NCBI RefSeq assembly: GCF_019711565.1
Contig: NZ_JAIGNN010000001.1
Location: forward strand, 1,550,001-1,614,000
Origin: Qipengyuania proteolytica
GTDB lineage: Bacteria; Pseudomonadota; Alphaproteobacteria; Sphingomonadales; Sphingomonadaceae
DNA: 64,000 nucleotides
Direction: 5' to 3'
The stretch's first letter is position 1, and the number at the start of each line of letters is the position of its first letter. This document shows, in pieces, positions 22,193-37,984 of the stretch. Position numbers and translations under genes: made by a program. Under the pieces are notes generated by a model. The model did not search any database. It was not told the DNA's origin and saw only the letters and a list, made by a program, of their open reading frames with translations.

Positions 22193-22206
22193 AGGTAGCG
22201 CTACCA
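22193..22206. promoter_or_regulatory. LacI-type operator copy 1
   Basis: AGGTAGCGCTACCA, with a perfect 12-bp palindrome GGTAGCGCTACC at 22194-22205. It is placed between the divergent semialdehyde dehydrogenase and sugar symporter genes. It is followed by TAA, giving TACCAT-like -10 potential. It belongs to a set of seven related sites in the window. Confidence 0.75.
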
Positions 22207-22247: not shown

Positions 22248-23666
22248 TTGGAAAAGACCAGCGGGGGCCAGAATCTGGCCCTGATTTCCGCCATCGTGGC
22301 TGTCGCCACCATCGGCGGTTTGCTCTTCGGCTACGACAGCGGGGCGGTGAACGGGACCCAGCCGGGTCTCAAGGCAGCCTTTGCACTGAGCGAAGGGGGA
22401 CTCGGCTTCACGGTCGGTTCGCTGCTCATCGGCTGCTTCATCGGCGCATTCTTCGCCGGGACGCTGGCCGACCAGATGGGGCGGCGCAACGTCATGCGGA
22501 TCGCGGCACTGCTGTTCCTCGTCGGCGCGCTCGTTCAGGGCCTCACCACCGACCACACCATTTTCGTGATCGCGCGCCTTGCAGGCGGGATCGCCGTCGG
22601 TGCAGCGAGTGTCCTGTCCCCGGCCTACATCGCAGAGGTCGCCCCGGCGAACATCCGAGGCCGGATGACCACTGTGCAGCAGATCATGATCATTACCGGC
22701 CTGACGCTGGCCTTCGTGGTCAACTATTTCCTGGCAGCGGCAGCCGGCGATTCGACCAGCGCCTTCTGGGGCGGGATCGAGGCGTGGCGGTGGATGTACC
22801 TGATGCAGGCGGTGCCCGCTGCGGTGTTCCTGGTTGCGCTCTTCTTCATCCCCGAAAGCCCGCGCTATCTCGTCTCGAAAGGCCGCAACGAGGAGGCGGG
22901 CGGCGTGCTCACCCGTCTGTTCGGCGAGAGCGAGGCTACGACCAAGCTTCAAGAAATCCGCGAGAGCTTCTCGGTCGATCACCGCCCGCAACTGCGCGAC
23001 GTGCTGGCACCGGCGGGGACCAAGGGCTTCCTCGGCCTGCGCCCGATCATCTGGGTCGGTATCATGCTCGCCGTGTTCCAGCAGCTCGTCGGGATCAATG
23101 TGATCTTCTACTACGGCGCCACGCTGTGGCAGCTGGCGGGCTTCACCGAGAACGACAGCCTGCTGATCAACATCGTTTCGGGCGCGGTGTCGATCGCGGC
23201 CTGCTTCATCACCATCGCCGTCATCGACAAGATCGGTCGCAAGCCGCTGCTGCTCATTGGTTCGGCGGGCATGGCGGTGACGCTGTTCGTCATGGTCTAC
23301 GCCTTCAGCCAGGGTGGTCTCGATGCCGAGGGCAATTTAACGCTCTCGGCCTCGCTCGGGACGCTCGCAGTGGTGGCTGCGAACCTCTACGTGATCTTCT
23401 TCAACGTTAGCTGGGGTCCGGTCATGTGGGTCATGCTGGCCGAGATGTTCCCCAACCAGATCCGCGGTTCCGCACTGGCGGTGGCGGGCTTCTTCCAGTG
23501 GTTCGCGAACTATCTCATCGCGCAATCCTTCCCGCTGATGGCGGCAGGGATCGGCCTTGCCGCGAGCTATAGCTTCTACGCGGTCTGCGCGGTCATCAGT
23601 TTCTTCCTCGTCCAGAAGTTCATCACCGAAACGAAGGGCAAGGAACTGGAGGAAATGCAGGGATGA
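22248..23666 (+). CDS. Sugar/H+ symporter, XylE-like (MFS sugar porter)
   Basis: This twelve-helix inner-membrane sugar porter probably imports xylose released in the periplasm. Family signatures are GGLLFGYDSGAVNG in helix 1, GRRN after helix 2, PESPRYLVSKGR after helix 6, QQLVGINVIFYYG in helix 7 and the C-terminal ETKGKELEEM. I chose TTG at 22248 (MEKTSGGQN) because GGGAGAGGGA lies just upstream; the frame upstream is open but non-homologous. The product has 472 residues. It is first in a run with two halogenase-like genes, and operator copy 1 lies 41 bp upstream of the start. Xylose is inferred from context; arabinose or glucose is possible. Confidence 0.88.
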   Translation: MEKTSGGQNLALISAIVAVATIGGLLFGYDSGAVNGTQPGLKAAFALSEGGLGFTVGSLLIGCFIGAFFAGTLADQMGRRNVMRIAALLFLVGALVQGLTTDHTIFVIARLAGGIAVGAASVLSPAYIAEVAPANIRGRMTTVQQIMIITGLTLAFVVNYFLAAAAGDSTSAFWGGIEAWRWMYLMQAVPAAVFLVALFFIPESPRYLVSKGRNEEAGGVLTRLFGESEATTKLQEIRESFSVDHRPQLRDVLAPAGTKGFLGLRPIIWVGIMLAVFQQLVGINVIFYYGATLWQLAGFTENDSLLINIVSGAVSIAACFITIAVIDKIGRKPLLLIGSAGMAVTLFVMVYAFSQGGLDAEGNLTLSASLGTLAVVAANLYVIFFNVSWGPVMWVMLAEMFPNQIRGSALAVAGFFQWFANYLIAQSFPLMAAGIGLAASYSFYAVCAVISFFLVQKFITETKGKELEEMQG

Positions 23667-23714: not shown

Positions 23715-25238
23715 ATGGGTAGCGAGACAGCCAAGCGCCTGCGGGTCGTTGTCCTCGGCGGGGGAACCGCCGGATGGATGACGGCCGCGGGGATTGCGCG
23801 GCTCCTGCCCGATCTCGCCAATGTGCAACTGGTCGAAAGCGAGGACATCGGCATCGTCGGCGTCGGCGAGGCGACCCTGCCGCATATCCGCGGCTTCGTC
23901 GAGCGGCTGGGGATCGACGAGGCGGCCTTCATGAAGGCGACCCACGCGACCTACAAGCTGGGCATCGACTTCCGCGATTTCGGCAGGATCGGTGAGAGCT
24001 ACATCCACCCCTTCGGCTCCTTCGGCGAGGAGCTGCGCGGGGTGGGCTTCCACCACTACTGGCTCGAGCTGCACCGGCAGGGGCTCGCGCGCCCGCTCGG
24101 TGAGTATTCGCTGGCGGTCGCTGCCGCGCAGGCCAACCGCTTCCGCCCACCGAGCCTCGATAGCTCGCTCGGCTCGACCTATGGCTATGCCTACCAGTTC
24201 GACGCCACGCTGTTTGGCCCGTTCATGCGCGAATTTGGCGTCTCGATCGGCGTCGAACGGCACGAGGGTGTCGTCACTTCGGTCGAGCGCGACGCGGAGA
24301 CCGGCGATGTCCGCGCGCTGTGCCTCAGGGACGGGCAGCGGATCGAGGGCGACCTGTTCGTCGATTGCTCGGGCTTTCGCTCGGTGCTGCTCGGACAAGA
24401 ACTCGCGGTCGACTGGGAAGACTGGATCCACTGGCTTCCCTGCGATCGCGCGGCGGCGATGCCATGTACCCATGCGACCGAGGATTTGCGGCCCTATACC
24501 ACCGCGACCGCCATGCCCGCGGGCTGGCGCTGGCAGATCCCGCTGCAGCACCGCATGGGCAATGGATATGTCTTCTCCAGTGCGCATCTCGACGAGGACG
24601 CTGCCTGCGAGGCGATCAGGACGAGCGCCGAGGGCACGCCGCTGGCAGAACCGCGCATCCTGCGCTTCCGCCCCGGACGGCGCGCGCAGTCATGGAGCCA
24701 CAACGTCATCGGCGTCGGCCTTGCGAGCGGCTTCCTCGAGCCGCTGGAATCGACCTCGATCTATCTCGCGCAGATGGCGATTACCTATCTTATCGAGCTG
24801 TTCCCGCAGGACGGGACCATCGACCCGCGCGACCGCGACGAGTTCAACCGGATGGTCGATATGGAATACGACCGCGTGCGCGACTTCCTGATCCTGCACT
24901 ACCACGCGACCACGCGCGACGATTCCGAGTTCTGGAACCACGTCCGCACGATGACGGTGCCCGACAGCCTCGCCGACAAGCTCGAGCTGTGGCGCAAGGC
25001 CGGGCGGATCGAGAAATATTCCGACGGCCTCTTCTACGATGCCAGCTGGATCGCGGCTTATGTCGGGCAGGGCCTGCTGCCCGAACGCTACGATCCGCGC
25101 CCTGCACTGGGCGACCCAGCGCAACTGGCGCGCGCGGCGGAGCGGCTGCACGAAGCGATCGCACAGGAGGTCGCGGCCATGCCCGATCACCGCGCTTTCC
25201 TGCTGCGCGAAGCGGCGCGCATCGCGGAGGCGGCATGA
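23715..25238 (+). CDS. Flavin-dependent tryptophan-halogenase-like protein 1
   Basis: This 507-residue member of the tryptophan halogenase family has flavin-binding GGGTAG at 15-20. The putative halide-transfer lysine is K81 in TYKLGIDF (K79 in PrnA). The signature WxWxIP is WRWQIP at 271-276, and the glutamate E345 in LEPLESTSI matches PrnA E346. All halogenase landmarks are therefore present. Relatives next to TonB receptors in Caulobacter-, Xanthomonas- and sphingomonad-type loci are often annotated this way without known substrates; the Brevundimonas enzyme BrvH halogenates indole. It follows the symporter by 48 bp, and its stop overlaps the next start as ATGA. No flavin reductase gene is seen nearby. 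Confidence 0.88.
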   Translation: MGSETAKRLRVVVLGGGTAGWMTAAGIARLLPDLANVQLVESEDIGIVGVGEATLPHIRGFVERLGIDEAAFMKATHATYKLGIDFRDFGRIGESYIHPFGSFGEELRGVGFHHYWLELHRQGLARPLGEYSLAVAAAQANRFRPPSLDSSLGSTYGYAYQFDATLFGPFMREFGVSIGVERHEGVVTSVERDAETGDVRALCLRDGQRIEGDLFVDCSGFRSVLLGQELAVDWEDWIHWLPCDRAAAMPCTHATEDLRPYTTATAMPAGWRWQIPLQHRMGNGYVFSSAHLDEDAACEAIRTSAEGTPLAEPRILRFRPGRRAQSWSHNVIGVGLASGFLEPLESTSIYLAQMAITYLIELFPQDGTIDPRDRDEFNRMVDMEYDRVRDFLILHYHATTRDDSEFWNHVRTMTVPDSLADKLELWRKAGRIEKYSDGLFYDASWIAAYVGQGLLPERYDPRPALGDPAQLARAAERLHEAIAQEVAAMPDHRAFLLREAARIAEAA

Positions 25239-26710
25239 TCGCCCCGCGCGAGCCCCTGCGCCGGATCGTCGTGGTCGGCGGGGGGCAGCTGGGCGTGCTC
25301 GCCGCTATCGCACTGCGTCGCGCGCTGCCGGTGTGCCAGGTGGTGGTGGTCGGGCAACTGCCGTCGCCCGCCTCATTCGCCGACTGGTCGCCGACCGCGC
25401 TTCCGTTCACCAACAAGCTGCACGACCGGCTCGGCGTGGCGGAGGATGCCATCGTCCTGCGAGCTGGCGGCAGTCACCGTCTCGTGACCCGCTATCTCGG
25501 CTGGGGCGGAGAGGGACAGGCGGGCGTGCTCGCCTATGGCGAGACGCTCGATCCGGTGCTCAAGACCGCCTTTGCGCGCGAGTGGGGCGGTGGGCGCCCC
25601 CTTCCGGGCGGGCCGCGTCCCGCCGGGTCGGTGGCCGAGGTGCTGGCCGATGCCGGACGGTTCGCACCGCCGCCGCCCGACCAGCAGACGCCTCTTTCCG
25701 ATATCGACTATTCGCTGCGCTGGAATGCGCAGGCCTATCGCGGGCTGCTGATCGAGCACGCGCAGGCGCTTGGCGTGGATTATGTCGAGGGCGAGATCGA
25801 CCGGGTCGAGCCGGGCGAGGGCGACACGATCCGCGCCATCGGGCTCGCGGGCCAGGGCGAAATCGAAGCCGATTTCTTCGTCGACTGCAGCGGTCCGCAG
25901 GCGCGCCTGCTCGCCTCGCATCCTCAGTTCGCGATGGTCGACTGGTCGGCGAGTCTGCCGACGCGCAAGGTCTACCTGTCAGGGCCCGGTGCGCCGATGG
26001 CCGCGCTCGAAGATCGTGTCTCGCTGCTCGCGGAAGGCTGGCTGGTCGAGATTGCGGGGCGCGACGGGCTCTATCGCATGCTCGGCACGAGCGAGGAGGT
26101 GTCGCGCGATGCAGCGCTGCAAGCGCTGGGGGCACCTGCAGCTGCGGTGGTCGCGCTGGAGCCCGGCCGGGTCGCGGCGCCGTGGCTTGGCAATGTGGTG
26201 GCCCTCGGCGATGCCACCGCGCGCTTCGAGCCGATCGGTCCGTGGCACCTCGACCTTGCGCATCGCCAGCTTCACCTGCTGCTCGAAATGCTGCCGGGGC
26301 GACAGATCGAACCGCTCGAGCGGGCGGAATACAACCGTCGCTCGGTGCTGATGATGGAGGGCGTGCACGAGACGTTGGCGCTTCATTTCGCCTCCGATCG
26401 CGGCCGCGCGGTGTTCGGCGATCGCGCCCTCCCGAACCGGCTCGGCGAGGTCATCGATCAATGCCGCAGGCGCGGCCGTATCCCGTTTCGCGAAGAGCAG
26501 CCGCTGGTGCCGCAAGAGCAGTTTGCGCTGATGGCAGCGCTGGGTTTCAAACCCGGCTTGCCCCCTGTCGCTCGCTCGGCTTACCAGCACTCGGAAGAGC
26601 GGGCTAAGGAAGGCTTTGCCGCGCGCTCCACGCAGGCGCTGCAATTCGCACCGCCCTACGAGCGCTGGCTTGCCTCGATGCTCCAGCCTAGCCGAGCGCC
26701 TGCCGGATAA
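25235..26710 (+). CDS. Degenerate halogenase-like flavoprotein (protein 2)
   Basis: This 491-residue relative of the tryptophan halogenases has an N-terminal flavin fold (IVVVGGGQLG at 11-20) but has lost the landmarks. GGGTAG is GGGQLG. No TYK lysine is visible, there is no WxWxIP, and the catalytic LEPLESTSI is replaced by FEPIGPWHLDL. The C-terminal region EYNRRSVLMMEGVHETLALH still aligns with the family. It is probably not a halogenase itself. Translational coupling to protein 1 (ATGA overlap) suggests a partner or flavin-binding role. Its 3' end overlaps the converging cupin gene by 23 bp. Confidence 0.8.
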   Translation: MIAPREPLRRIVVVGGGQLGVLAAIALRRALPVCQVVVVGQLPSPASFADWSPTALPFTNKLHDRLGVAEDAIVLRAGGSHRLVTRYLGWGGEGQAGVLAYGETLDPVLKTAFAREWGGGRPLPGGPRPAGSVAEVLADAGRFAPPPPDQQTPLSDIDYSLRWNAQAYRGLLIEHAQALGVDYVEGEIDRVEPGEGDTIRAIGLAGQGEIEADFFVDCSGPQARLLASHPQFAMVDWSASLPTRKVYLSGPGAPMAALEDRVSLLAEGWLVEIAGRDGLYRMLGTSEEVSRDAALQALGAPAAAVVALEPGRVAAPWLGNVVALGDATARFEPIGPWHLDLAHRQLHLLLEMLPGRQIEPLERAEYNRRSVLMMEGVHETLALHFASDRGRAVFGDRALPNRLGEVIDQCRRRGRIPFREEQPLVPQEQFALMAALGFKPGLPPVARSAYQHSEERAKEGFAARSTQALQFAPPYERWLASMLQPSRAPAG

Positions 26711-27704
26711 TCTCGCGCATCCGCGCAAACAGCGGCGGCGAGGGTGGGCCGAGGATGCCTGCTGCACTCGCCGGCAGGTGCGCCGCCGGAACGCCAGACC
26801 GCTCGAAGACGTAATAGTCGAGCAAGGTGCGCCACACATCCCGCTGCTCCTCGGGCAAGTGCCGATAGGCGAGCATGGCGTGGAGCAGCGCATCATAGGC
26901 CCCACCGATTTCCGCAGGCAGGCCCTCGGTCCACCAGTAATTGACGAGGATGCTCACCGGATCGAGCGATTCCACGCCGTGCCACCAGCCATAGGGAATG
27001 TAGATCGCATCTCCGGGTTTGAGCATTGCCTGCTGCGCCGCCGCCCACGCCTCGGCGAAGCGCGGGTGGGCTTCGAGGTCGGGGCTCGCAAGATCGACCA
27101 TGCTCACCGGCGTCCCGGCGGGCGTAAGCTCGAAGGGACCGGGATAGAGATTGGCAATCTGGTCGGGCGGAAACAGGGTGAAGCGCCGCCGCCCGGAAAC
27201 GCAGCAGGCGACGTTTTCCTTGGCATCGTAATGCGGTGCGACACGGATGCGGTTGCCGATCCAGATGCGCGGCGCGACGCCGGGCAGCAGGGCGAGCGCA
27301 TTGTCGCGCACGAATTGCGGCAGGAGGCTGGCGATGTCCTCGGATTGCACCGCCATGGCAGGCGGATCGGCGAGATCGCGCGCCCTCAGGAGATCGTCGA
27401 GAAAGGCTTCGAGGCGACCCTGGCCGCGCACGAAGTTCAGGCGGGACAGGTCGGGCGTGTAGAAGAACCGTCCGCCTTCCTCGGGCGGGGCGGCGATGGC
27501 CGATACCGGCCGGGCGCTGCCCTTGGCGGCGAGATAGTTGCGGATCGACTCATCGCCACGTCTGGCAGCAGCGACGGCGGGCCAGTCGGCGACGATCCCG
27601 CGCAGGACGCAAGGCCGTGCCGCCTGCCTGATCGCTGCAAAATCTTCTGCGCCGAACGGTCCCGCGTGTTCGGGCAGGGGAGCCGGGCTACCCGAAAGGC
27701 TCAT
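26688..27704 (-). CDS. Cupin-8 (JmjC-like) iron/2-oxoglutarate oxygenase-like protein 1
   Basis: This 338-residue protein is of the cupin-8 family, which includes FIH-type 2-oxoglutarate hydroxylases. Iron ligands are visible as H158-x-D160 in APHYDAKENV and H242 in WWHGVESL. A conserved RRFTLFPPDQ segment lies between. It lacks a signal peptide, so it is cytoplasmic. The start ATG (27704) overlaps the stop of the upstream halogenase-like gene as ATGA. It is third in the operon of two halogenase-like genes. Similar cupins accompany TonB receptor/halogenase pairs in related bacteria. Substrate unknown; a protein or small-molecule hydroxylase is possible. Confidence 0.82.
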   Translation of the reverse strand: MSLSGSPAPLPEHAGPFGAEDFAAIRQAARPCVLRGIVADWPAVAAARRGDESIRNYLAAKGSARPVSAIAAPPEEGGRFFYTPDLSRLNFVRGQGRLEAFLDDLLRARDLADPPAMAVQSEDIASLLPQFVRDNALALLPGVAPRIWIGNRIRVAPHYDAKENVACCVSGRRRFTLFPPDQIANLYPGPFELTPAGTPVSMVDLASPDLEAHPRFAEAWAAAQQAMLKPGDAIYIPYGWWHGVESLDPVSILVNYWWTEGLPAEIGGAYDALLHAMLAYRHLPEEQRDVWRTLLDYYVFERSGVPAAHLPASAAGILGPPSPPLFARMREIIRQALG

Positions 27705-29233
27705 GTGCTCAGGCGGTCCGCTGCCTCGATCGCTCCGCCGTGCTGGCGCAGGAAGGCAGCCTGCGTCGGCATCTGCGCCACGGTATTGCCGATGACCTCG
27801 CGGATATGGGCGAGGCGGGTCGGCGTTTCGCCCGCGTCGAGCAGGTGCGCGGCAGGATGGTGGCCCTCGGGGACGATGCCCTGGTTGAGCATCACCGAAA
27901 GCCAGCTCGCCTCGGTGAAGAGCTCGTTGTTCTCGCGGAAGATGCGCCCCGAACTGCGGAACATCTCGATCTTGGCCGCCAGCGCATCGGTCGGCTCGAG
28001 ATTGCGGCAATAGCGCCAGAACTCGGAATCGTCCCGCTCGCTCGCCATGTAATGCAGCAACAGGAAGTCGCGGATATCGACATATTCCTGCTCCGTCTCG
28101 CGATTGAAGCGGTCGATTTCGGCATGGCCGAAGCTGCTGTCCGGAAACAGCGAAAGCAGGCGCGCGATGCCCGACTGGACGAGGTGGATCGAGGTCGATT
28201 CGAGCGGCTCGAGAAACCCGGCCGCAAGACCCAGCGCGACGACGTTCTTCTCCCACGCCCGCGCCCGGTGGCCCGCCGTGAAGCGCAGCTGGTTGGGCTC
28301 GGCCAGCGGCGTGCCGTCGAGGTTTTCGAGCAGCATCGCGGTGGCGTCGTCGCGCTCCATATAGGCAGAGCAGAACACGTGCCCGTTGCCGATCCGGTGC
28401 TGTAGCGGGATGCGCCATTGCCAGCCTGCCGGTCGCGCGGTGGAGCGGGTCAGTGGCTCGGTCTCGCCATCAAGCTCACACGGGATAGCGACCGCGCTGT
28501 CGCAGGGCAGCCATTTCGACCAGTCGGTGAAGGGCACGCCCAGCGTCTGGCCCAGCAGCAGCGAGCGGAAGCCGGAGCAGTCGACGAAGAGTTCGCCTTC
28601 AACCTCGCGTCCGTTCTCCAAAACGATCGCCGTGACGTGGCCGGTCTCGGCATCCTGCTTTACGTCGACGACCTTGCCTTCGACCCGCACTGCACCGGCC
28701 GCCTCGGCCATACCGCGCAGGAAGGGGGCATAGCGCCCTGCATCGAACTGGAAAGCATAGGACAGGCGCGACAGGGGTGACTTGGTGGCGTCCGGCTGCG
28801 GCCAGGCGAACTTGCCCGCCTTGCCGGCGACGGCGGCGATCGAATAGGCGTCGATCATCCCCGGATCGCCCAACTCGCGCCCGCGCAGCCAGAAATGGTG
28901 GAACTCGATCCCCAGCATATCGAGGCCGAAGGTGCCGAAGGGATGGACGTAGGAATGGCCCGGGCGCAGCCAGTCGACGAACTCGATGCCGAGCTTGTAG
29001 GTCGCGCGGGTCTCGCGCATGAACTGCATCTCGTCGATGCCGATCATCCGGTTATAGAGCGAGATTTGGGGAATGGTCGCCTCGCCGACGCCAATAGTAC
29101 CGATCGCCTCGCTTTCCACCAGCGTCACCGAGAAGCCGGGCATGGCGCCGAGGATGCGGGTGAGTGCGGTCGCGGCCATCCAGCCGGCGGTGCCGCCGCC
29201 GACAATCACGACTTTCGTGACAGGCTTCGCCAT
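27701..29233 (-). CDS. Flavin-dependent tryptophan-halogenase-like protein 3
   Basis: This 510-residue halogenase-family protein keeps all landmarks: GGGTAG at 12-17, K80 in TYKLGIEF, WQWRIP in the middle, and LEPLESTSIHL. It is closest in feel to protein 4, with which it shares the sequence around GHVFCS/GHVFSS and ESTSIHL. Its ATG (29233) overlaps the stop of protein 4 by one base (TGATG), and its stop overlaps the cupin start, so all three are cotranslated. No signal peptide is present. Whether it halogenates, and what, is unknown. Confidence 0.88.
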   Translation of the reverse strand: MAKPVTKVVIVGGGTAGWMAATALTRILGAMPGFSVTLVESEAIGTIGVGEATIPQISLYNRMIGIDEMQFMRETRATYKLGIEFVDWLRPGHSYVHPFGTFGLDMLGIEFHHFWLRGRELGDPGMIDAYSIAAVAGKAGKFAWPQPDATKSPLSRLSYAFQFDAGRYAPFLRGMAEAAGAVRVEGKVVDVKQDAETGHVTAIVLENGREVEGELFVDCSGFRSLLLGQTLGVPFTDWSKWLPCDSAVAIPCELDGETEPLTRSTARPAGWQWRIPLQHRIGNGHVFCSAYMERDDATAMLLENLDGTPLAEPNQLRFTAGHRARAWEKNVVALGLAAGFLEPLESTSIHLVQSGIARLLSLFPDSSFGHAEIDRFNRETEQEYVDIRDFLLLHYMASERDDSEFWRYCRNLEPTDALAAKIEMFRSSGRIFRENNELFTEASWLSVMLNQGIVPEGHHPAAHLLDAGETPTRLAHIREVIGNTVAQMPTQAAFLRQHGGAIEAADRLST

Positions 29234-30756
29234 CAGCGCGCCGCCGCCTGCGGCGTGAATGCAGGGGGAGGGGCGTCGTGCCAGCCGCCCGACTGGCGCA
29301 GGAACTCCTCATGGCTCGGCAGCCGCGCCGCGGTGTCGCGATAGGCATCGCGCATCTGGCGCATGGCGGCCGCGATCTTGGCCTCGTCGAGTGTGTCGGC
29401 GATCGCGTCATAGGCATCGGGCCAGATGTTCTGGCCGAGCATCACCGCGATCCAGCTGGGCGCGGTGAAGAGTTCGGCATTCTCGCGGAAGACCCGGCCA
29501 TGCAGGCGCCACAGCTCCATCTTGCGCGCGAGGCTATCGGGCACCTCCATGTCGCGGACGTAGCGCCAGAACTCGGAGTCGCCGCGCTGTGTCGCCTTGT
29601 AGTGGAGGATGATGAAGTCGCGCACGTCCTCGTAGAGCTCGCGCATGCCGCGATTGTATTCGTCGCGCTCGAGCGGGCTGATCGGGTTGTCGGGGAAGAG
29701 GGCGAAAAGCCGCGCGATGCCGTTCTGGATCAGGTGGATGCTGGTCGATTCGAGTGGCTCGATGAAGCCCGAGGACAGGCCGAGCGAGACGACATTGTGG
29801 TTCCACGCCTTGCGCCGCATGCCGGTGTTGAAAAACAGCGTGCGCGGATCCTGCAGCGGCTCTCCGTCGAGGTTGGCGAGCAGGGTGTCGCGCGCCTCGT
29901 CTTCTTCCATGAAATTGCTCGAAAACACATGCCCGTTGCCCGTGCGGTGCTGCAGCGGGATGCGCCATTGCCAGCCGGCGCTGTGCGCGGTCGAGCGGGT
30001 GTAGGGCTCTGGCGGACCGGGGCTGGCGGTAGGGACAGCGATGGCGCGGTCCATCGGCAACCAGTGGCTCCAGTCCTCATAGCCGGTTTCCAGCGCGTCC
30101 TCGATCAGCAACCCGCGAAAGCCCGAGCAATCGATGAAGAGGTCGCCTTCGACCTCGCTCCCGTCCTCCAGCCGGACCGAGTGGATATCGCCTGTCTCCC
30201 CGTCGCGCCGGACGTCGGTGATGCGGCCTTCCTTGCGCCTGACCTGCTGCCTCTCGGCAAGATTGCGCAGGAAGGCAGCGTAGAGGCTCGCATCGAACTG
30301 ATAGGCATAGGCGATCTGCGAGACGAGCGACTTGGCCCCGGCGGCAGGTCGCGCGAACCTGCCGCTGCGCGCCGCCATGGTCGACATCGAGAATTCGCCG
30401 ATCTCGCCGGGCGAGTGGCCGCGGGCGTACTCGCGCAGGAAGAGGTGGTGGAACTGGATGCCGTGGAAATCCTGGCCATAGGTGCCGAAGGGGTGGAAGT
30501 AGCGGTCCCCCCGCTTGCCCCAATTCACGAATTCGATGCCCAGCTTGTAGGTGCCGCGCGTTGCGCGCAGGAATTCGTTCTCCGAAATGTCCAGCATGGC
30601 GTTGAAATTGCGGATCGGCGGAATCGTCGCCTCGCCGACGCCGACGGTGCCGATTGCATCCGATTCGATCAACGTGATGGTGCGCTGGCCGTCGTTGAAA
30701 AAGCGCGACATGGCGGCAGCCGCCATCCACCCGGCGGTCCCTCCGCCGACGATCAC
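29233..30756 (-). CDS. Flavin-dependent tryptophan-halogenase-like protein 4
   Basis: This is the first gene of a three-gene minus-strand operon (halogenase-like, halogenase-like, cupin). The landmarks GGGTAG, K71 in TYKLGIEF, WQWRIP and IEPLESTSIHL are all present. The only conventional start codon in frame is GTG at 30756, which would truncate the first beta strand to VIVGGGTAGW. Upstream codons read NRIRRV, as in intact relatives, but offer no ATG, GTG or TTG before a stop. A rare start such as ATC, or a truncated N-terminus, must be used. About 507 residues from GTG. It diverges from the TonB receptor gene across a 218-bp regulatory gap. Confidence 0.85.
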   Translation of the reverse strand: MIVGGGTAGWMAAAAMSRFFNDGQRTITLIESDAIGTVGVGEATIPPIRNFNAMLDISENEFLRATRGTYKLGIEFVNWGKRGDRYFHPFGTYGQDFHGIQFHHLFLREYARGHSPGEIGEFSMSTMAARSGRFARPAAGAKSLVSQIAYAYQFDASLYAAFLRNLAERQQVRRKEGRITDVRRDGETGDIHSVRLEDGSEVEGDLFIDCSGFRGLLIEDALETGYEDWSHWLPMDRAIAVPTASPGPPEPYTRSTAHSAGWQWRIPLQHRTGNGHVFSSNFMEEDEARDTLLANLDGEPLQDPRTLFFNTGMRRKAWNHNVVSLGLSSGFIEPLESTSIHLIQNGIARLFALFPDNPISPLERDEYNRGMRELYEDVRDFIILHYKATQRGDSEFWRYVRDMEVPDSLARKMELWRLHGRVFRENAELFTAPSWIAVMLGQNIWPDAYDAIADTLDEAKIAAAMRQMRDAYRDTAARLPSHEEFLRQSGGWHDAPPPAFTPQAAAR

Positions 30757-30777
30757 GACCCGTCTGATACGATTTAC

Positions 30778-30789
30778 GGTAACGATACC
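30778..30789. promoter_or_regulatory. LacI-type operator copy 2 (degenerate)
   Basis: GGTAACGATACC keeps both GGTA/TACC half-sites and the central CG of the set, with two changes from GGTAGCGCTACC. It lies 22 bp upstream of the GTG of halogenase-like protein 4, on the side controlling that operon. Confidence 0.5.
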
Positions 30790-30879
30790 ATTTACCTCCG
30801 CCCTTGGCCTACCTGTCTATCGCCGATCAGTGCTGTGGGCAATTTGTCACAAAATGTCGGGAATGGGTTTTCCCCCCTC

Positions 30880-30908
30880 TTGCCAATCCTCCAATGGCTC
30901 GATACACC
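30880..30908 (+). promoter_or_regulatory. Promoter candidate for the TonB receptor gene
   Basis: TTGCCA (30880-30885), 17-base spacer, TACACC (30903-30908). A start near 30915 would put operator copy 3 about 30 bases downstream, consistent with a roadblock or repression site. The -10 match is weak. Confidence 0.35.
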
Positions 30909-30944
30909 TTCCAACAAAGAATTCAAAAGCTCCACGCTCAATAG

Positions 30945-30958
30945 TGGTAGCGCTAACA
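30945..30958. promoter_or_regulatory. LacI-type operator copy 3
   Basis: TGGTAGCGCTAACA, one base from the perfect palindrome. It lies 16 bp before the TonB receptor ATG and overlaps or directly precedes the ribosome site (GGGAGGG). Confidence 0.7.
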
Positions 30959-30974
30959 TGGGAGGGATGGTCTT

Positions 30975-33900
30975 ATGACCGAGACGATCGGGAATCGTGA
31001 CGGGCGCGGTGCCCCCAACGAGCGTTTGCTGAAGACTTTGTTGCGCACCAGTGTCTCGGCCATGGTGGTCGGCGGCTTCATGATGGGGCAGGCGGCCTAC
31101 GCGCAGGAGGCTTCCGACGAGCCCGAGGCGGCTTCAGGCGCGGACGAGAATGTCATCGTTGTCAGCGGTATTCGCCAGTCGCTCGCCAATGCGCAGAACA
31201 TCAAGCGGGATTCCGACACGGTGGTCGATGCGATCACCGCGGAAGACATCGGCGCTCTGCCCGATCGTTCGGTGACCGAAGCGCTCCAGCGCGTCCCCGG
31301 CATCGCCATCAACCGCTTTGCCGGCTCGAACGACCCCGACCACTTCTCGGTCGAGGGCTCGGGCGTCGTCATCCGCGGCCTCAACTTCGTCCGTTCGGAA
31401 TTCAACGGGCGGACCGCCTTCGCTGCTGGCGTTGGGGGGCAGGCACTCAACTTTGCTGACGTGCCTTCCGAACTGCTCGGCTCGGTGCTCATTAACAAGA
31501 ATGCTACCGCCGACCTTGTCGAAGGCGGGCTGGCCGGGACCGTGAATCTCGTAACCCGCAAGCCGCTCGATCGTCCGGGGTTCCACATCGCGTTCAGCGG
31601 TGAAGCCAACTATGGCGACTTTGCCAAGGAATGGACGCCCACCTTCTCCGGCCTGATCAGCAACACGTGGGAAACCGACAAGGGCACCTTCGGCCTGCTC
31701 GTGGCGGGATCCTATTCGCGCATCAAGAGCCGTGCGGACGGCCTGCAGATCACCAACTTCCAGACGCGAGACGGGGCCCAAGTCGATGAGGCTTTCGCCA
31801 ACGGTCGCGAAATCTGCCGCAATCCGCTGCCGGGTAGCGGCGACAGCACCAGCAACCCGCCAGCGAATTCACCGTGCGGTACGGCGCAACTCCCAGGCGC
31901 GGACGGCTTCGTCGATCCGGCAGGCCTGCGGTACGCTCCGCTAGGCGGCCAGTTCCGCACCCAGGAATTCGATCGCAAGCGTGACGGTATCTCTGCCGCC
32001 GCTCAGTTCGAATCGATCGACGGCAAGACCGTGATCACCGCCGAATTCATTCGCTCGCACGCCACCAACCGCTGGGGCGAGCATACGTTCGAGACCGGGC
32101 CGGACCTTGCCGAGTACGGCACGTATCCGCTGGGCTGCCAGCAGAATGCAGCCGGTCCGAACCGGGTCAATACGGACGGCTCTCTGGGCGATCCGACGAC
32201 GCGGGCGCAGTGCCCGGTCGGCGGTTTCACCGATTATATCTACGACGCCAACGGCCTCTTCCAGTCCGGCTACATCACCAATCCGAACGACGGCTGGCGC
32301 GGGAATCCCGGCACCTCGCCCTTCGTTCCGATCGGCGGCCTGCAGCAGACGCTGGCGCGTCGCGAAGTCGACGAGTCGACTACCAACCAGGACTGGGGCG
32401 CCCATCTTTCGACGGAACTGACGGATCGCCTGCATCTCGATCTCGACTTTCAGTATGCCAAGTCGCGAAAGACCAATCTCGACGTCACGGTGCATGGTTC
32501 GCTTTTCGCAGACCAGGAGATCGACCTAAGGGGCGATTATCCGAGCGTCATTCCACATGTGCCCAACTATCTCAGCTACAGCTGGGCAGGCGACAGCGAT
32601 GCGCTCGCTCCGTATGGTCGCGATCCGTCGACCCCGGCGACAGCTTCGGACGATGCGGCTTATTTCGGCGATCCGCGCTTCACCTTCTGGCGGTCCGCAA
32701 TGGACCACATCGAGGAAAGCACGGGCACGCAATATGCCTGGCGTGCCGACCTCGCCTACGAGTTCGACGAGGATTCCTTCCTGCGCGAAGTAAAGGTCGG
32801 GGCCCGCTTCCAGGATCGCGATCAGACGGTTCGCTACACCACCTACAACTGGGGCATGCTCAGCGAAGTCTGGTCGGGCGATCGGCCGGTGAATTTCGAG
32901 GACACCGGAGCAGGCAATTCGGAGTTCTTCGAATTCCCCGACTTCTTCCGCGGACAGGCCCCCGGTCCAATCGGTGGCTACTACTACAATGGCGACCTGA
33001 TCGATGGCTACGAGGAATCGGTCGCTTTCTTCCAGTCGATCCAGGACCAGTACCGCGACCTCAACGGCTCTCCGACGTGGAACCCGCTTGCCGGCCGACC
33101 GGGTGTCGTCGCTGGCACACCCTATCTGCCTTCCGAAATCCAGCCGATCCGGCAGGAAGACGATTCTGGCTATGTCATGCTGCGTTTCGGGAGCGAAAAT
33201 TTCGCCGGGATGCGGATGTCGGGCAATATCGGCGTGCGCTACGTCAATTCCCGCATCGCCTCGACCGGGCTTACGAACCTGTCGGCAGTCCAGGCGCAAT
33301 TCGCGCAGGATCGAGCCACGCTATGTGCGCCGATTCCGCCTGTACCGGGACGCCCGCCGGCAACACCGGGCGGGATATGCAACCTGACGGATGCCGAGTT
33401 CAGCCAGCTCGAGCAGTTCTCTTTGACCGAGTTTACTCCCGAAACGGCGAAGGCGTCCTACGACTTCTGGCTGCCGAGCTTGAACGTCAAGTTCGAAGTG
33501 ACGCCGGACGTTATCGTCCGTGCCGCCGTCTCCAAGGTCATGACGCGGCCCGACAATGCGTACCTGCGAAATTTCCTGAACATCTCGTACAACATCAACG
33601 CGGGCATCCTTACGGCCGATGCCGGCAACCCCCTGATCAGGCCGGCAACGGCCTGGCAGGCCGACCTGACGGCGGAATGGTATTTCGCCACCGTCGGCTC
33701 GTTGACAGCGAACCTGTTTTACAAGCGGGTGAAGGACTTCTTCTATCAGAGTGTCGGTACGGTTTTGGTCGAAGGTGACGGCCTGACACTGCCGGTGGTG
33801 GTCCGTCGACCGGACAATTTCGAAGGCACCGGCAAGATCAAGGGCTTCGAGCTGGCCTACCAGCAGACCTACGACTTCCTGCCCGCTCCGTTCGACGGGC

Positions 33901-34352
33901 TCGGCGTGTCGGCGAACTACACCTACATCAAGAGTTCCGGTCTGCCGAACACGTTCCTCAACGGCGGCAATATCCCGACGCCATCGACCGTCCCGCCGGG
34001 TAATCTCCCGCTCGAGCAGCTCTCGAAGCACAACGTCAATGCCACCGTGTTCTACGAGAAGGGCCCGATCTCGATGCGTGCCGCGTACAACTGGCGCTCA
34101 CGCTTCCTGCTGACGGCGAGCGACGTGATCTTCCCCTATTACTCGATCTTCAACGAGCCGACGGGGCAGCTGGACGCGTCGATCTTCTTCAACGTCACCG
34201 ACAACATCAAAATCGGTGCGCAGGGCGTCAACCTGCTCAACGAGGTGACGAAGACCACGCAGGCCTATACCGGCAATCCGGCGGACCTTGCGCCGCGATC
34301 CTATTTCATGAACGATCGCCGCTTCTCCTTCATCATCCGGGGCAATTTCTAG
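30975..34352 (+). CDS. TonB-dependent receptor, probably for xylo-oligosaccharides
   Basis: This large (1125-residue) outer-membrane receptor has a signal peptide ending near AYA (residue 43), a TonB-box-like segment (ENVIVVSGIRQSL, about 59-71) and a plug domain (TVVDAITAEDIGALPDRSVTE). A 22-strand-type barrel follows, ending in the aromatic NDRRFSFIIRGNF. It matches the Xanthomonas/Caulobacter carbohydrate-associated subfamily. The ligand is inferred from the surrounding xylanase genes. GGGAGGG precedes the ATG. A perfect UUCG-loop terminator follows. No SusD-type partner is present, as expected for proteobacterial loci. Confidence 0.9.
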   Translation: MTETIGNRDGRGAPNERLLKTLLRTSVSAMVVGGFMMGQAAYAQEASDEPEAASGADENVIVVSGIRQSLANAQNIKRDSDTVVDAITAEDIGALPDRSVTEALQRVPGIAINRFAGSNDPDHFSVEGSGVVIRGLNFVRSEFNGRTAFAAGVGGQALNFADVPSELLGSVLINKNATADLVEGGLAGTVNLVTRKPLDRPGFHIAFSGEANYGDFAKEWTPTFSGLISNTWETDKGTFGLLVAGSYSRIKSRADGLQITNFQTRDGAQVDEAFANGREICRNPLPGSGDSTSNPPANSPCGTAQLPGADGFVDPAGLRYAPLGGQFRTQEFDRKRDGISAAAQFESIDGKTVITAEFIRSHATNRWGEHTFETGPDLAEYGTYPLGCQQNAAGPNRVNTDGSLGDPTTRAQCPVGGFTDYIYDANGLFQSGYITNPNDGWRGNPGTSPFVPIGGLQQTLARREVDESTTNQDWGAHLSTELTDRLHLDLDFQYAKSRKTNLDVTVHGSLFADQEIDLRGDYPSVIPHVPNYLSYSWAGDSDALAPYGRDPSTPATASDDAAYFGDPRFTFWRSAMDHIEESTGTQYAWRADLAYEFDEDSFLREVKVGARFQDRDQTVRYTTYNWGMLSEVWSGDRPVNFEDTGAGNSEFFEFPDFFRGQAPGPIGGYYYNGDLIDGYEESVAFFQSIQDQYRDLNGSPTWNPLAGRPGVVAGTPYLPSEIQPIRQEDDSGYVMLRFGSENFAGMRMSGNIGVRYVNSRIASTGLTNLSAVQAQFAQDRATLCAPIPPVPGRPPATPGGICNLTDAEFSQLEQFSLTEFTPETAKASYDFWLPSLNVKFEVTPDVIVRAAVSKVMTRPDNAYLRNFLNISYNINAGILTADAGNPLIRPATAWQADLTAEWYFATVGSLTANLFYKRVKDFFYQSVGTVLVEGDGLTLPVVVRRPDNFEGTGKIKGFELAYQQTYDFLPAPFDGLGVSANYTYIKSSGLPNTFLNGGNIPTPSTVPPGNLPLEQLSKHNVNATVFYEKGPISMRAAYNWRSRFLLTASDVIFPYYSIFNEPTGQLDASIFFNVTDNIKIGAQGVNLLNEVTKTTQAYTGNPADLAPRSYFMNDRRFSFIIRGNF

Positions 34353-34427: not shown

Positions 34428-35585
34428 TCAGCCTGCGAGCGAGGCGGCGATGGCGTCGCGCAGCGGCTTCGGGCTGTAGTCCGACCCGTAAGGCGCGCCG
34501 CGCACTTCCAGCCCATCGTCGCGCTTCGAGGGGCCGAAATATTGCAGCCAGTTGAAGCCGTCGACCATCCCCCAGGCGAGGATGTCGTCGAGGTGCTCGC
34601 CATATTCGAGCATGAGGTCGAAATAGCGCTGCGAGAACTCCGCGACCTTCGCATCGCGCAGCGCAATGTTCCCGGGCAGCGCCTTGTCCTTCACGTCGAA
34701 CTCCGTGACCAGCAGGCGATAGCCCATGTCGACCACCTCATCGAGGAAGGCTCGCCATTCGCGTTCGGCCACCGGCCCGACGCCGGTTGCGGGATCGAGC
34801 GAGAACATCTCGATATGCGACTGGATGCCCAGCGCATCGACCGGCGTCCCGCGCTTGCGGAAGCCTTCGAGCAACCGCAGCACGTCGGCACAGTGCTTCC
34901 GGTGGGCAGGCTCCCAGCTCATGTAATCGTTATAGACAAGCTGGCCTTGGGGCAGTTCCTCGCGCGCCGTGTGAAAAGCGAGGTCGAGCACAGCCTCGGG
35001 GCTCCCCATGGCGCGGCTCAGGCTGGTTTCGATCGGCGCATTGCGATCGTGATCGATAGCCTCGTTGACGACGTCGTAGCTCGAAATCACACCCTTGTAG
35101 CGGCGCGTGACGGTGCGGATGTGCTCGGTGACGAGACGTTCCGCCTCGCTCGCCGGGCGGGCGCCGAAGTCGTAGCTGTTGAGCCAGTCGGGAAACCATT
35201 GCGGCCGGTGCCACAGCAGCGTGTGCCCGCGCACCTCGAGCCCCTCCGTTTGAGCCCAAGCGACGATCTGGTCCAGCCGCGCGAAGTCATAGGTAGCGGG
35301 ATCGGGGCGCGTCGCCTGCCATTTCATCTCGTTCTCGGGCACGACCAGCCCGCATTCGCCGAGCACGATATCGGTGTAGCGCGGGTTCTGGATCGATCCG
35401 GCGGAGGTCCGTCCGGGCGTCGAGGCGATGGCTGTGCCGAAGCGGCGACCTCCCGCCTGTGCCAGCGTGTCGAGGCTGGGCGAGGGGGTCCTGGCCGGAC
35501 TGCCAGATGCACGCGGGAGCGCGCCATTCGCGCAGCCGGCGACTGCCAGCGCACCGAGCGCGGTCAGGGCATCGCGCCGCCTCAT
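34428..35585 (-). CDS. GH10 endo-1,4-beta-xylanase, lipoprotein
   Basis: GH10 enzymes cleave internal xylan bonds with retention. The acid/base is E175 in DVVNEAID and the nucleophile E295 in VTEFDVKD. Substrate-site sequences are EMKWQATRPDP, GHTLLWHRPQ and GIQSHIEM. The N-terminus MRRRDALTALGALAVAGC has a lipobox (C18) and a twin-arginine-like run, so a membrane-anchored, perhaps Tat-exported, protein is likely. No carbohydrate-binding module is fused (385 residues), which suits attack on imported or surface oligosaccharides. The start overlaps the GH3 stop as ATGA. The frame is open upstream to 35687 inside GH3, which is not real. Confidence 0.93.
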   Translation of the reverse strand: MRRRDALTALGALAVAGCANGALPRASGSPARTPSPSLDTLAQAGGRRFGTAIASTPGRTSAGSIQNPRYTDIVLGECGLVVPENEMKWQATRPDPATYDFARLDQIVAWAQTEGLEVRGHTLLWHRPQWFPDWLNSYDFGARPASEAERLVTEHIRTVTRRYKGVISSYDVVNEAIDHDRNAPIETSLSRAMGSPEAVLDLAFHTAREELPQGQLVYNDYMSWEPAHRKHCADVLRLLEGFRKRGTPVDALGIQSHIEMFSLDPATGVGPVAEREWRAFLDEVVDMGYRLLVTEFDVKDKALPGNIALRDAKVAEFSQRYFDLMLEYGEHLDDILAWGMVDGFNWLQYFGPSKRDDGLEVRGAPYGSDYSPKPLRDAIAASLAG

Positions 35586-37984
35586 GGCAGGACCGTCAGT
35601 TTGACGTCGACGACGTCGCGCGAGTTGGGCCCGACCATCAGCGTGAAGTCGCCCGGCTCGACCACGCGCTGCATGTCCCTGTTCCACAAGGCGAAGGCAT
35701 CGGGCCGGATGGCGATATCGACCTGCTTCGTCTCGCCTGCGGCCAACGTGACCCGCTGGAAGCCGACCAGTTCCTTGACCGGGCGCGTGACCGAGCTGAC
35801 ATCATCGCGCAGGTAGACTTGCACGACCTCGTCGCCGACCAGCTTGCCGGTGTTGGTGACGGGAACGCGGATCGTCACGCCGTCGCCTGCCGAAATCGAT
35901 GCCGAGGACAGCGTCGGCGTGCCGAAGGAGAAGCTGGTGTAGGACAGACCGTAACCGAACGGGTAGAGCGGCGAGACTTCCCCGAACAGGTAACCGCGCC
36001 GCGCGCTGGGCTTGTGGTTATAGAAGTTCGGCAGCTGACCGACGTTGCGCGCGGTCGTGACGGGCATCTTGCCGCCCGGATTGACCCGGCCGAACAGCGC
36101 GTCGGCGATGGCGGTGCCCTGCTGCTCACCGGCGTACCAGGTCTCGAGCACCGCGTTGGCCTCGCCGTCCACCGATAGATAGCTCGGCGGGCGTCCGTTC
36201 ACGAGCACCGCCACGATCGGCTTGCCGAGCGCCTTGAGCGCAGCGAACAACTCGTTCTGCTCGCCCACGAGATCGAGGCTGGTGCGGTCGCCGAGGTGGT
36301 TGTCGCCCCAGCCTTCGCGGCTGGTCTGTTCGGTGTCGCCGATGAACAGCAGGATGGTGTCGGCACCGCGCGCCGCCTCGACCGCCTGCGTGATCATGCG
36401 GCGGTTTTCTGCCGGATCGGCGAGGACGACCTCGTCCTCCCACCAGTCGTCGTTTTCGGTGATCTTCACGCCGGGCGCGTGGACGATGGTCGCACGCTCG
36501 CCGACGAGCGTCCTGATCCCTTCGAGCGGGCTGACGGTCTTGCGCGGGATGCCGTAATAGCCGCCGAGCCTTGCGACGTCGGCATTGGGCCCGATCACGG
36601 CGATGGTCGGCTTTGCCCCGCTGGCAGGAAGCGACAGCGGCAGCACCCCGTCATTTTTGAGCAGGACGAGCGATTTCTCCGCCGCCTTGCGCGCCAGGGC
36701 GACGCCTTCGGGGCCGTTGGAGGCGAGGGCGGGCGCGGTGTCGGTGACGAAGGGCTGTTCGAAGAGCCCGGCGTTGAACTTCATCGTCAGGATGCGTTCG
36801 ACCGCCTCGTCGATCTGGGCGAGCGTGACCTTGCCGTCCGCCAGCTGTTTGCCGAGGTTGCGGAAGGCGGCACCATCGGGGAAATCGATATCGACGCCGG
36901 CATCGAGCGCCAGCTTCGCCGCGTCCGGAATCTCTGCGGCGATCTTGTGCCGCGAAACCATTTCCTCGATCGCGAAATAGTCCGACACGACCGCGCCTTC
37001 GAAACCCCATTCCTCGCGCAGGATGTCGTGCAGCAGCCAGCGGCTCGAGTGGCTTGGGATGCCATCGATTTCGTTGTAGCTTGCCATCACCGCATCGATC
37101 GCGGTCCGGTCGACCACTTCCTTGAACGGCGGGAAGAACATCTCGCGCAAGGTGCGTTCGGAAATCTGCGCCGGTGCGATATTGGTGCCGCTCTCGGGCT
37201 GGCCGTGGCCAGTCATGTGCTTGAGCGTCGCCATCACCTGACCGGGCGCGAGCTTGCGGTCGCGACCGACGCCTTGCAGGCCCTCCACCGCGGCAACCCC
37301 CATCTCGGCGACGAGGTAGGGATCCTCGCCGAAGGTTTCCTCGATCCGGCCCCAACGCGGATCGCGCGCGACGTCGACGACAGGGGAGAGAACCTGCGTG
37401 ACGCCGCGCGCGCTGACCTCGCCGGCGATGTAATCGTTGACGTCGCGTACGAGGTCCGGGTCCCAGGTCGAGGCGAGGCCAATGGCCTGGGGGAAGCTGG
37501 TGGCATCGAGCGCGGCGAGCCCGTGGAGCGATTCCTCATGCGTCATCACTGGAATGCCGAGCCGGGTGGAGCGCGCCCAGGCCTGCAGCGCGTTGACGTA
37601 GCGGATGCTGTCCTCGATCGAGCGGGGGGTGTTGAGGCGCGGGCTGCCCGGGCCGCGCAGGTCGGACGGGCGGGTGAAGAAGCCGATCCCGTCGGGATAG
37701 CGTGCGCTGGCCTTGGCGGCGTCGAAGAAGTCGGCATCGTCCTGGATCTCGGCCTTGTTGGTCCAGGTCGAGATCATCTGGGAGAGCTTTTCCTCCAGCG
37801 TCATGCGCGCCATCAGGTCGGCGACGCGCGTCTCGCCGGGGAGCGACGCATCCCAATAGGGCGCGTCTGCCAAGGGTCGTTCGCTCGCCGTGGCATCCTG
37901 TGCCAGCGCGGTCGAAACGTGAAGCGGTTGAAGCGCCAGGAAACATGTCCCGAGCGCGAGCGCGGTGCGCTTTATGGCCTTCAT
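35582..37984 (-). CDS. GH3 beta-xylosidase/beta-glucosidase, exported
   Basis: This 800-residue GH3 enzyme has a Sec signal peptide (residues 1-29, ending STALAQ). The N-terminal TIM barrel carries the nucleophile D335 in GAVVSDYFAIEEM and substrate residues K255-H256 in ATLKHMTGHGQPESG. The alpha/beta sandwich and a fibronectin-III-like C-terminal domain follow. Operon position next to GH10, and beside GH67, suggests it releases xylose from xylo-oligosaccharides; beta-glucosidase activity is possible. MKAIKR at 37984 has a strong GGGAGAGGA site. It diverges from GH67 with only 58 bp between start codons, which contain operator copy 4. Confidence 0.9.
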   Translation of the reverse strand: MKAIKRTALALGTCFLALQPLHVSTALAQDATASERPLADAPYWDASLPGETRVADLMARMTLEEKLSQMISTWTNKAEIQDDADFFDAAKASARYPDGIGFFTRPSDLRGPGSPRLNTPRSIEDSIRYVNALQAWARSTRLGIPVMTHEESLHGLAALDATSFPQAIGLASTWDPDLVRDVNDYIAGEVSARGVTQVLSPVVDVARDPRWGRIEETFGEDPYLVAEMGVAAVEGLQGVGRDRKLAPGQVMATLKHMTGHGQPESGTNIAPAQISERTLREMFFPPFKEVVDRTAIDAVMASYNEIDGIPSHSSRWLLHDILREEWGFEGAVVSDYFAIEEMVSRHKIAAEIPDAAKLALDAGVDIDFPDGAAFRNLGKQLADGKVTLAQIDEAVERILTMKFNAGLFEQPFVTDTAPALASNGPEGVALARKAAEKSLVLLKNDGVLPLSLPASGAKPTIAVIGPNADVARLGGYYGIPRKTVSPLEGIRTLVGERATIVHAPGVKITENDDWWEDEVVLADPAENRRMITQAVEAARGADTILLFIGDTEQTSREGWGDNHLGDRTSLDLVGEQNELFAALKALGKPIVAVLVNGRPPSYLSVDGEANAVLETWYAGEQQGTAIADALFGRVNPGGKMPVTTARNVGQLPNFYNHKPSARRGYLFGEVSPLYPFGYGLSYTSFSFGTPTLSSASISAGDGVTIRVPVTNTGKLVGDEVVQVYLRDDVSSVTRPVKELVGFQRVTLAAGETKQVDIAIRPDAFALWNRDMQRVVEPGDFTLMVGPNSRDVVDVKLTVLP

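Follow-up and report, generated by a model that had tools for sequence, protein, structure and literature searches.

This study investigated why four halogenase-like flavoproteins and a cupin protein are encoded in a carbohydrate locus of Qipengyuania proteolytica, and on what these proteins might act. The window was a 64,000-nucleotide stretch of the genome (assembly GCF_019711565.1, contig NZ_JAIGNN010000001.1, positions 1,550,001 to 1,614,000 of the forward strand), in which the genes in question span positions 23,715 to 34,352. All four PF04820 genes (hal1 to hal4) and the cupin gene were located between a sugar porter gene and the gene of a TonB-dependent receptor (TBDR) of the TIGR01782 family, which agrees with a first-pass annotation that had placed them in a xylan locus. 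The results revealed that the halogenases are linked to the receptor, of which we are almost certain, and the association with the receptor and the quartet is solid. We further propose, with a probability of approximately 0.42, that the locus encodes three predicted active halogenases, a pseudoenzyme, and a putative hydroxylase, and that the halogenases, co-inherited with the receptor, would modify its aromatic residues before export. The core genes are as follows.

22248..23666, plus strand: major facilitator superfamily sugar porter (Sugar_tr; PF00083, 380.5 bits), leading the run that includes hal1 and hal2
23715..25238, plus strand: hal1, predicted active flavin-dependent halogenase of the BrvH/Xcc4156 type (PF04820, 585.7 bits; motifs; PDB match 6frl)
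25235..26710, plus strand: hal2, predicted catalytically defective halogenase paralogue (PF04820, 180 bits; without the Lys and WxWxIP)
26688..27704, minus strand: Cupin_8/JmjC protein, candidate 2-oxoglutarate hydroxylase resembling factor inhibiting HIF (FIH) (PF13621, 219 bits; PDB match FIH)
27701..29233, minus strand: hal3, predicted active halogenase (PF04820, 626.5 bits; motifs; PDB match 9luq)
29233..30756 (start uncertain), minus strand: hal4, predicted active halogenase (PF04820, 643.7 bits from the GTG start)
30975..34352, plus strand: TBDR of the TonB-Xanth-Caul subfamily, 1125 residues (TIGR01782, 639 bits)

The linkage was evident in the genome that contains the window, where all four receptors above the TIGR01782 cut-off (310 bits in NCBIfam; 21 bits for the PF04820 profile) had a halogenase match no more than 400 bp away, and all nine PF04820 matches lay within 10 kb of one of these receptors. 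Across 61 genomes, 120 of the 139 halogenase matches listed were within 10 kb of a receptor, compared with 3.1 expected at random; 75 of the 117 receptors listed had a halogenase within that distance and 42 did not. These rows are not independent, with 37 of the 61 genomes belonging to one genus and some halogenase matches being fragments of one gene. The nearest halogenase within 1 kb was downstream on the same strand for 46 receptors, upstream and divergent for 25, and upstream on the same strand for 1. Among 299 genomes of the phylum, both families were present in 46, the halogenase alone in 7, the receptor alone in 22, and neither in 224 (Fisher p = 9e-30, uncorrected for kinship). Among the best 80 of at least 591 relatives of hal4, a receptor was found in the fetched stretch for 75 and within 1 kb for 56; because this set was seeded with hal4, the former figure favors the present type of locus. 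These relatives include members of the Erythrobacteraceae, Caulobacterales, Maricaulaceae, Oxalobacteraceae, Burkholderiales, and Alteromonadales. Copy numbers are lower bounds, as at most 12, 22, 5, and 3 candidates per genome were scored in the four genome searches, and the locus sets overlap (L096 and L228 are surely one genome). One genome that carried no TIGR01782 receptor at E 1e-90 had four PF04820 matches (G050:C50:49226-60263), a possible other use of the family.

The four genes also recurred as a set. In a tree of 332 halogenases, from which open reading frames (ORFs) shorter than 330 residues were left out, separate groups formed around hal1, hal2, hal3, and hal4, with 49, 45, 47, and 45 members, respectively; support was low at some deep nodes, chiefly those splitting hal3, hal4, and the remaining sequences. 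The order 1-2-4-3 recurred in Maricaulaceae (L265) and Alteromonadales (L288 and L291), in Erythrobacteraceae 1-2 lies on one strand and 4-3 on the other, and the third gene fell outside the hal4 group in several loci (L248, L259, L261, L271, and L274). The window receptor, in which the plug PF07715 and the barrel PF00593 accompany the TIGR01782 match, belongs to that subfamily; no solved relative was identified by sequence at E 1e-10, and its predicted model (predicted local distance difference test [pLDDT] score, 83.1) matched the folds of other TonB-dependent transporters. In a tree of 187 receptors, all 38 placed receptors from loci with both hal1 and hal2 fell into one clade of 70 with a support of 1.0; such loci total 44, and six of them lack a full receptor and are hence outside the tree. 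The same clade also holds single-halogenase loci whose next gene encodes a PF01613 flavin reductase.

Among the four paralogues, hal2 is the defective one. Of the halogenase motifs it retains only a GGGxxG, and within its group the catalytic Lys and both Trp residues of WxWxIP were each kept in 2 of 45 members. A hal1 of at least 330 residues was present in the same locus for 44 of the 45 hal2 genes, and 43 of the 45 directly followed hal1 on the same strand with a gap of less than 100 bp; in the exceptions, hal1 ran off the stretch (L220) or hal2 was split into two ORFs (L218). The ratio of nonsynonymous to synonymous substitution (dN/dS; Nei-Gojobori method, with several dS values near or above 1) was 0.06-0.31 for hal2 in the nine computable of ten ortholog pairs and 0.05-0.14 for hal1, so that hal2 changes faster than hal1. 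The placement after hal1 and the dN/dS values far below 1 ruled out a decaying pseudogene. The predicted model of hal2 (pLDDT, 89.9) had a halogenase fold with BrvH as its best fold match (TM score, 0.85). Because hal2 is kept beside hal1, has a dN/dS far below 1, and retains the fold in the model, its sequence marks it as a conserved pseudoenzyme, classed as a homologue and not as an enzyme. We infer that it is probably a partner of hal1.

The first-pass annotation had stated that three of the four proteins keep GGGTAG, the catalytic Lys, WxWxIP, and the Glu of tryptophan halogenases, and this was borne out for hal1, hal3, and hal4, in which GGGTAG, YKLGI, W[RQ]W[QR]IP, and F[LI]EP were all conserved. 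Both the profile scores and the GxGxxG, Lys, WxWxIP, and Glu signatures place these three in PF04820, and they look active by motif. The Lys, the Glu, and both Trp residues were kept in 281 of the 287 halogenase sequences outside the hal2 group. Among solved structures, the best matches were BrvH (6frl, 476 bits) for hal1 and 9luq for hal3 (528 bits) and hal4 (505 bits); BrvH, Xcc4156, and 9luq ranked best, and the tryptophan halogenases scored far lower. The halogenase sequences begin almost at the flavin adenine dinucleotide (FAD) motif, too close for a signal peptide to precede it.

We further analyzed the proteins that accompany the halogenases. The window cupin matched Cupin_8 (PF13621) and carried an HxD...H metal site in its sequence; its best PDB match was FIH (E 2e-18), with HYD and WWH..ES aligned. 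FIH, JMJD5, and JMJD7, its best solved relatives at only about 70 bits, have the same metal-ligand motifs in the alignment; they are eukaryotic proteins with other protein substrates, and we take them to be protein hydroxylases. These features make the cupin a candidate FIH-like protein hydroxylase. Cupin_8 genes were present in 14 of the 75 halogenase-bearing receptor loci, compared with 0 of the 42 without a halogenase, and in 31 of the 80 hal4-relative loci. SapC genes showed a similar distribution (13 of 75, compared with 0 of 42). A second Cupin_8 gene lies at 50645-51652 of the window, between GH5 and GH3 glycoside hydrolase (GH) genes and approximately 19.9 kb from the nearest halogenase match.

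A possible source of reduced flavin was located outside the window. The first-pass annotation had noted that no polyketide synthase, nonribosomal peptide synthetase, or flavin reductase was near, which holds for the 20 window ORFs scanned with Pfam, a part of the window genes; with regard to the reductase, the only PF01613 match of the genome lies approximately 400 bp from, and divergent to, the receptor match of another locus with SapC, cupin, and halogenase genes. A PF01613-like gene followed a halogenase gene within 42 bp in 15 of 197 loci and was divergent from the receptor in 5 of 197, and the two families came within 10 kb of each other in 21 of the 41 genomes that encode both. As 17 genomes carried PF01613 without a halogenase, the reductase is not exclusive to halogenases. 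The second module of the window genome (L114; G000:C1:998699-1018678) comprises a receptor, a halogenase, SapC, a cupin, an Xcc4156-type halogenase, and the divergent flavin reductase. At L131 and L114, acyl-CoA dehydrogenase and aldo/keto reductase genes were also present alongside the PF01613 reductase near the halogenase locus.

The window locus is a xylan utilization locus, with the following genes after the receptor.

34428..35687, minus strand: GH10 xylanase, marking the locus substrate (PF00331, 230 bits)
35582..38068, minus strand: GH3 glycosidase, xylosidase-like, a substrate marker (PF00933 and PF01915; the 5' end of the ORF overlaps the GH67 ORF)
37965..40154, plus strand: GH67 alpha-glucuronidase, a substrate marker (PF07488, 463 bits)
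40186..41310, plus strand: LacI-family regulator (PF00356, 64.9 bits; PF13377, 111 bits)

The halogenase genes are tightly packed on both strands. The porter stop lies 48 bp from hal1, which is followed by hal2 with a 4-bp overlap, and hal4, hal3, and the cupin gene overlap by 1 and 4 bases on the opposite strand. Three sites resembling a common operator were identified around these runs.

22194..22205: operator GGTAGCGCTACC, an exact palindrome before the porter-hal1-hal2 run, the first common start of the porter being at 22248
30778..30789: GGTAACGATACC, a degenerate copy of the operator with two mismatches, at the hal4 5' end
30946..30957: operator GGTAGCGCTAAC, an exact match in the divergent region between hal4 and the receptor, upstream of the latter

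The operator GGTAGCGCTAMC was exact at 22194 (porter), 30946 (receptor), and 38031 (near the 5' end, within the called GH67 ORF), and four related loci (L096, L098, L100, and L102) had an exact copy at approximately this position before their receptor. With up to two mismatches, 20 matches were counted, compared with a mean of 6.4 and a maximum of 14 in 100 shuffles, the palindrome being scored on both strands. The exact sites before the porter run and the receptor uphold, at the level of sequence, the earlier claim that the halogenases, the receptor, and the sugar transporter have operators in common. The LacI-family regulator at 40186-41310 likely reads these operators. A TBDR, a LacI regulator, a transporter, and glycosidases thus appear to stand under shared operators, the composition of a carbohydrate utilization (CUT) locus.

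The 5' end of hal4 contains a further feature. In many Erythrobacteraceae (L100, L212-L216, and L218), the first part of the hal4 coding sequence includes a palindrome that resembles the operator (GGTATCGGTAACG and similar), so that operator and peptide appear to be conserved together. The hal4 relatives in L100 and L215 begin at a common start codon that lies several codons before the equivalent position in the window, where the first common start is at 30756 and no in-frame ATG, GTG, or TTG occurs upstream of it in 30756-30800. As the window offers no common upstream start, hal4 read from 30756 would lack a part of the first strand of the FAD fold; the true start is probably upstream of 30756.

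On the basis of these findings, we consider receptor modification the most likely mechanism, a leading and strong but unproven proposal. FADH2 would come from a PF01613 reductase encoded elsewhere in the genome, and HOBr or HOCl made in the enzyme would halogenate a Trp (less likely a Tyr or His) residue of the unfolded receptor. This step would occur in the cytosol, because the enzymes begin almost at the FAD motif. The cupin may hydroxylate a residue of the same receptor protein, the defective hal2 would assist hal1 as a partner subunit that docks the substrate or exerts control, and LacI-type operators would switch on the enzymes and the receptor together. The expected effect of the modification is to tune how the receptor binds glycans or how it folds. 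We chose the receptor chain as the first candidate because the receptor is the constant element of these loci, the sites of related halogenases are open, a hydroxylase-like partner is present, no precursor peptide was found among the most widespread short-ORF families, and the halogenase groups match receptor clades. That the receptor is the direct substrate is a tentative claim, for which we would give slightly less than even odds. More doubtful is the general form of the proposal, a Proteobacterial maturation system in which an FIH-type hydroxylase and Trp halogenases, one of them a pseudoenzyme, would put halogen and hydroxyl groups on nutrient receptors before export, and which would explain the orphan brominases BrvH and Xcc4156.

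The first-pass annotation had named three possible jobs, the modification of the receptor, of a signaling aromatic, or of phenolic groups released from xylan; of these, receptor modification fitted the genomic data best, and the residue-level tests gave no confirmation. W626, W633, and W1040 were near-invariant in the quartet receptor clade and occurred at frequencies of 0.03-0.07 in receptors without a halogenase. In the predicted model, W626 and W633 lie in a long loop and W1040 at a strand end, which we read as extracellular, with the strand direction assigned by hand. H123 and W232 were kept with the larger enzyme set and were absent or rare in the single-halogenase branch. The Trp share was 1.22% in receptors with a halogenase and 0.90% in those without. 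Two loci with a halogenase approximately 18 kb away (L097 and L091) were counted as without one in the linkage, cupin/SapC, and Trp-share counts and in the first residue comparison; these two and L152, which has a halogenase fragment, were removed from that group in the later residue test.

Several points weigh against receptor modification. Comparisons of receptors with and without a halogenase identified no aromatic residue that is kept throughout the halogenase-linked group and missing from the rest, nor did they yield a universal modified residue. The three Trp residues occurred in only 0.12-0.33 of the other halogenase-linked receptors, and sugar stacking could be sufficient to explain them. 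The single-halogenase branch is one event in which many other residues changed along with H123 and W232, the sequences behind the Trp shares are not independent, and the share of invariant Trp residues did not separate the groups, one halogenase-less clade being usable. The 42 of 117 receptors without a halogenase within 10 kb indicate that the receptor fold does not need the enzyme. The cupin was absent from most halogenase-linked loci (61 of 75 and 49 of 80), the enzymes look cytosolic and the receptor folds in the outer membrane, and co-inheritance is expected of linked genes regardless of what they do. No halogenated receptor was found in the literature searched. The available parts of one report point both ways: in favor, PyrH and two other Trp halogenases chlorinated short peptides at a C-terminal Trp and PyrH variants did the same on fused proteins; against, none of the five wild-type enzymes tested halogenated an internal Trp (PMC9775415).

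The alternatives differ in what the enzymes would act on. The halogenases might act on a small aromatic compound, an indole-like signal or antimetabolite made on glycan sensing, with the receptor as a regulatory and genetic partner only. The shared operators, which imply glycan-dependent expression, are consistent with this, and so is the available text on BrvH, which converts indole to 3-bromoindole, and on the Xanthomonas (Xcc) enzymes, which like BrvH brominate indole compounds but not free tryptophan (PMC5945002 and PMC7336383). The activity of BrvH on indole was low, however, and its authors doubted that indole is the natural substrate (PMC5945002). No aromatic-biosynthesis gene recurred among the flanking genes scanned, a part of those present, and the confinement of three to four paralogues to a single receptor clade is more in keeping with a protein partner than with one small molecule; we regard this explanation as unlikely. 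Another protein of the module (SapC, a glycosidase, or TonB/ExbB) or the envelope could be modified in place of the receptor, in line with the SapC and cupin genes between receptor and halogenase in all five fetched Xcc4156-type loci and in L114. This is quite unlikely, given that SapC occurs in just 13 of the 75 halogenase-linked loci and that the glycosidases vary by locus, whereas the receptor is the most constant partner. It is improbable that the enzymes no longer halogenate and serve as flavin monooxygenases or redox sensors gating the operon: the retention of hal2 despite the lost Lys and WxWxIP points that way, but the near-complete conservation of the catalytic residues outside the hal2 group and the halogenase activity reported for the solved relatives BrvH and Xcc4156 (PMC5945002 and PMC7336383) argue against it.

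Halogenation or detoxification of hydroxycinnamate or other phenolics freed from xylan would suit the window locus, with its GH10, GH67, and GH3 genes. The same family stands beside receptors at loci with GH13 (L173 and L255), GH20 (L125), GH9 and GH1 (L261, which also carries hal1 and hal2), GH43 plus glucuronate isomerase (L239), and GH3 (L114, L129, L131, and L265); some flanking genes were scanned at 11 loci, with glycosidases at 9 and none among the scanned genes at L248 and L119. These varied neighbors disagree with the first-pass view of the halogenases as a xylan matter. Phenolics released from xylan, which would not be expected at the GH13, GH20, and GH9/GH1 loci, are therefore disfavored as a general substrate, and we consider this explanation highly improbable.

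Phage genes were also considered as a guide to the substrate and were set aside. A halogenase relative was listed in 78 phage records; cyanophages and Campylobacter phages (L207-L211) carry distant ones, and the five regions opened were mixed in context, some near structural genes or 2-oxoglutarate oxygenases. A 6-kb "Bacteriophage sp." record from human feces (MT837902.1:2693-4114) encodes a protein with 60% identity to hal4, by far the closest among the listed phage genes, and may be bacterial DNA.

No statement that PF04820 enzymes are linked to TonB receptors was found in the open-licence literature, subscription papers and supplements lying outside the search, and the word halogenase was absent from the main text of two papers on TonB-dependent transporters. 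The first-pass assertion that such co-location is known thus found no backing there, although halogenase neighbors of TonB receptors have been remarked on in Caulobacter and Xanthomonas annotation. Its view of the genes as the best candidate for an undescribed system fared better, no account of the combination having been found in the same literature. The parts come from known families; what appears new is the co-inherited module with its pseudoenzyme and the assignment of Xcc4156-type enzymes to it. In the available parts of PMC11337851, halogenases and TonB receptors are treated separately, with speculation on virus-receptor redox effects. A survey of algal microbiomes, as far as available, attributed the halogenase functions of Caulobacterales and other groups to the biosynthesis of rebeccamycin and pyrrolnitrin (PMC10919026), and we infer that its Caulobacterales halogenases are the same kind of gene as those described here. 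If such enzymes do serve TonB receptors, these assignments would be wrong, and a new protein modification in nutrient uptake would be implied.

Compared with known systems, hal3 and hal4 resemble most closely, among solved structures, the tryptophan halogenase of Pseudoalteromonas sp. L11 (9luq), which is known as a structure entry. MibH (5uao), which we take to act on a Trp of a lanthipeptide, is distant (191 bits to hal4, compared with 505 for 9luq). Unlike in MibH clusters, no conserved precursor peptide was seen near the core genes among the 20 most widespread short-ORF families (18-110 residues, within 1.5 kb); these families lay wholly or mostly inside predicted genes, and rarer or very divergent peptides could escape such a search. 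A halogenase cluster for a ribosomally synthesized and post-translationally modified peptide of the MibH type was rejected on this ground. MibH has been described as a peptide halogenase in the available text of PMC7336383. The CUT loci of Xanthomonas, with a TBDR, a regulator, a transporter, and glycosidases, are the same kind of locus as that of the window (PMC1790865); neither halogenase nor SapC occurs in the main text of that paper, as available.

BrvH, a Brevundimonas-type enzyme, resembles hal1 in its motifs and as its best match, and its gene adjoins a second halogenase gene. It is approximately 50-52% identical to the nearest genes here, with an unstable tree position. BrvH was studied alone on indole-type substrates, and the words receptor and transporter are absent from the available main text of its paper. 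In the parts available of both reports, the substrate sites of BrvH and Xcc4156 are described as open to solvent, a peptide substrate is suggested for both, and the native substrates of such halogenases are stated to be unknown (PMC5945002 and PMC7336383). Xcc4156 (6y1w), a brominase of Xanthomonas campestris, shares 57-59% identity with the halogenase encoded in the TBDR-SapC-cupin loci, L114 included, whereas hal1, hal3, and hal4 of the window are paralogues other than Xcc4156. A close relative of Xcc4156 was present in 26 of the 119 genomes of one family, very likely the Xanthomonadaceae because members reach 90% identity to Xcc4156. All five loci fetched from these 26, two of them with a relative approximately 90% identical, carried the receptor, SapC, cupin, and halogenase genes on one strand; the receptor of L304 appeared as two overlapping ORF hits, and L303 had a second halogenase between the receptor and SapC, as in the window genome. 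The present findings thus name a co-inherited quartet with a predicted pseudoenzyme partner and tie the relatives of an active brominase to a run of receptor, SapC, putative hydroxylase, and halogenase genes.

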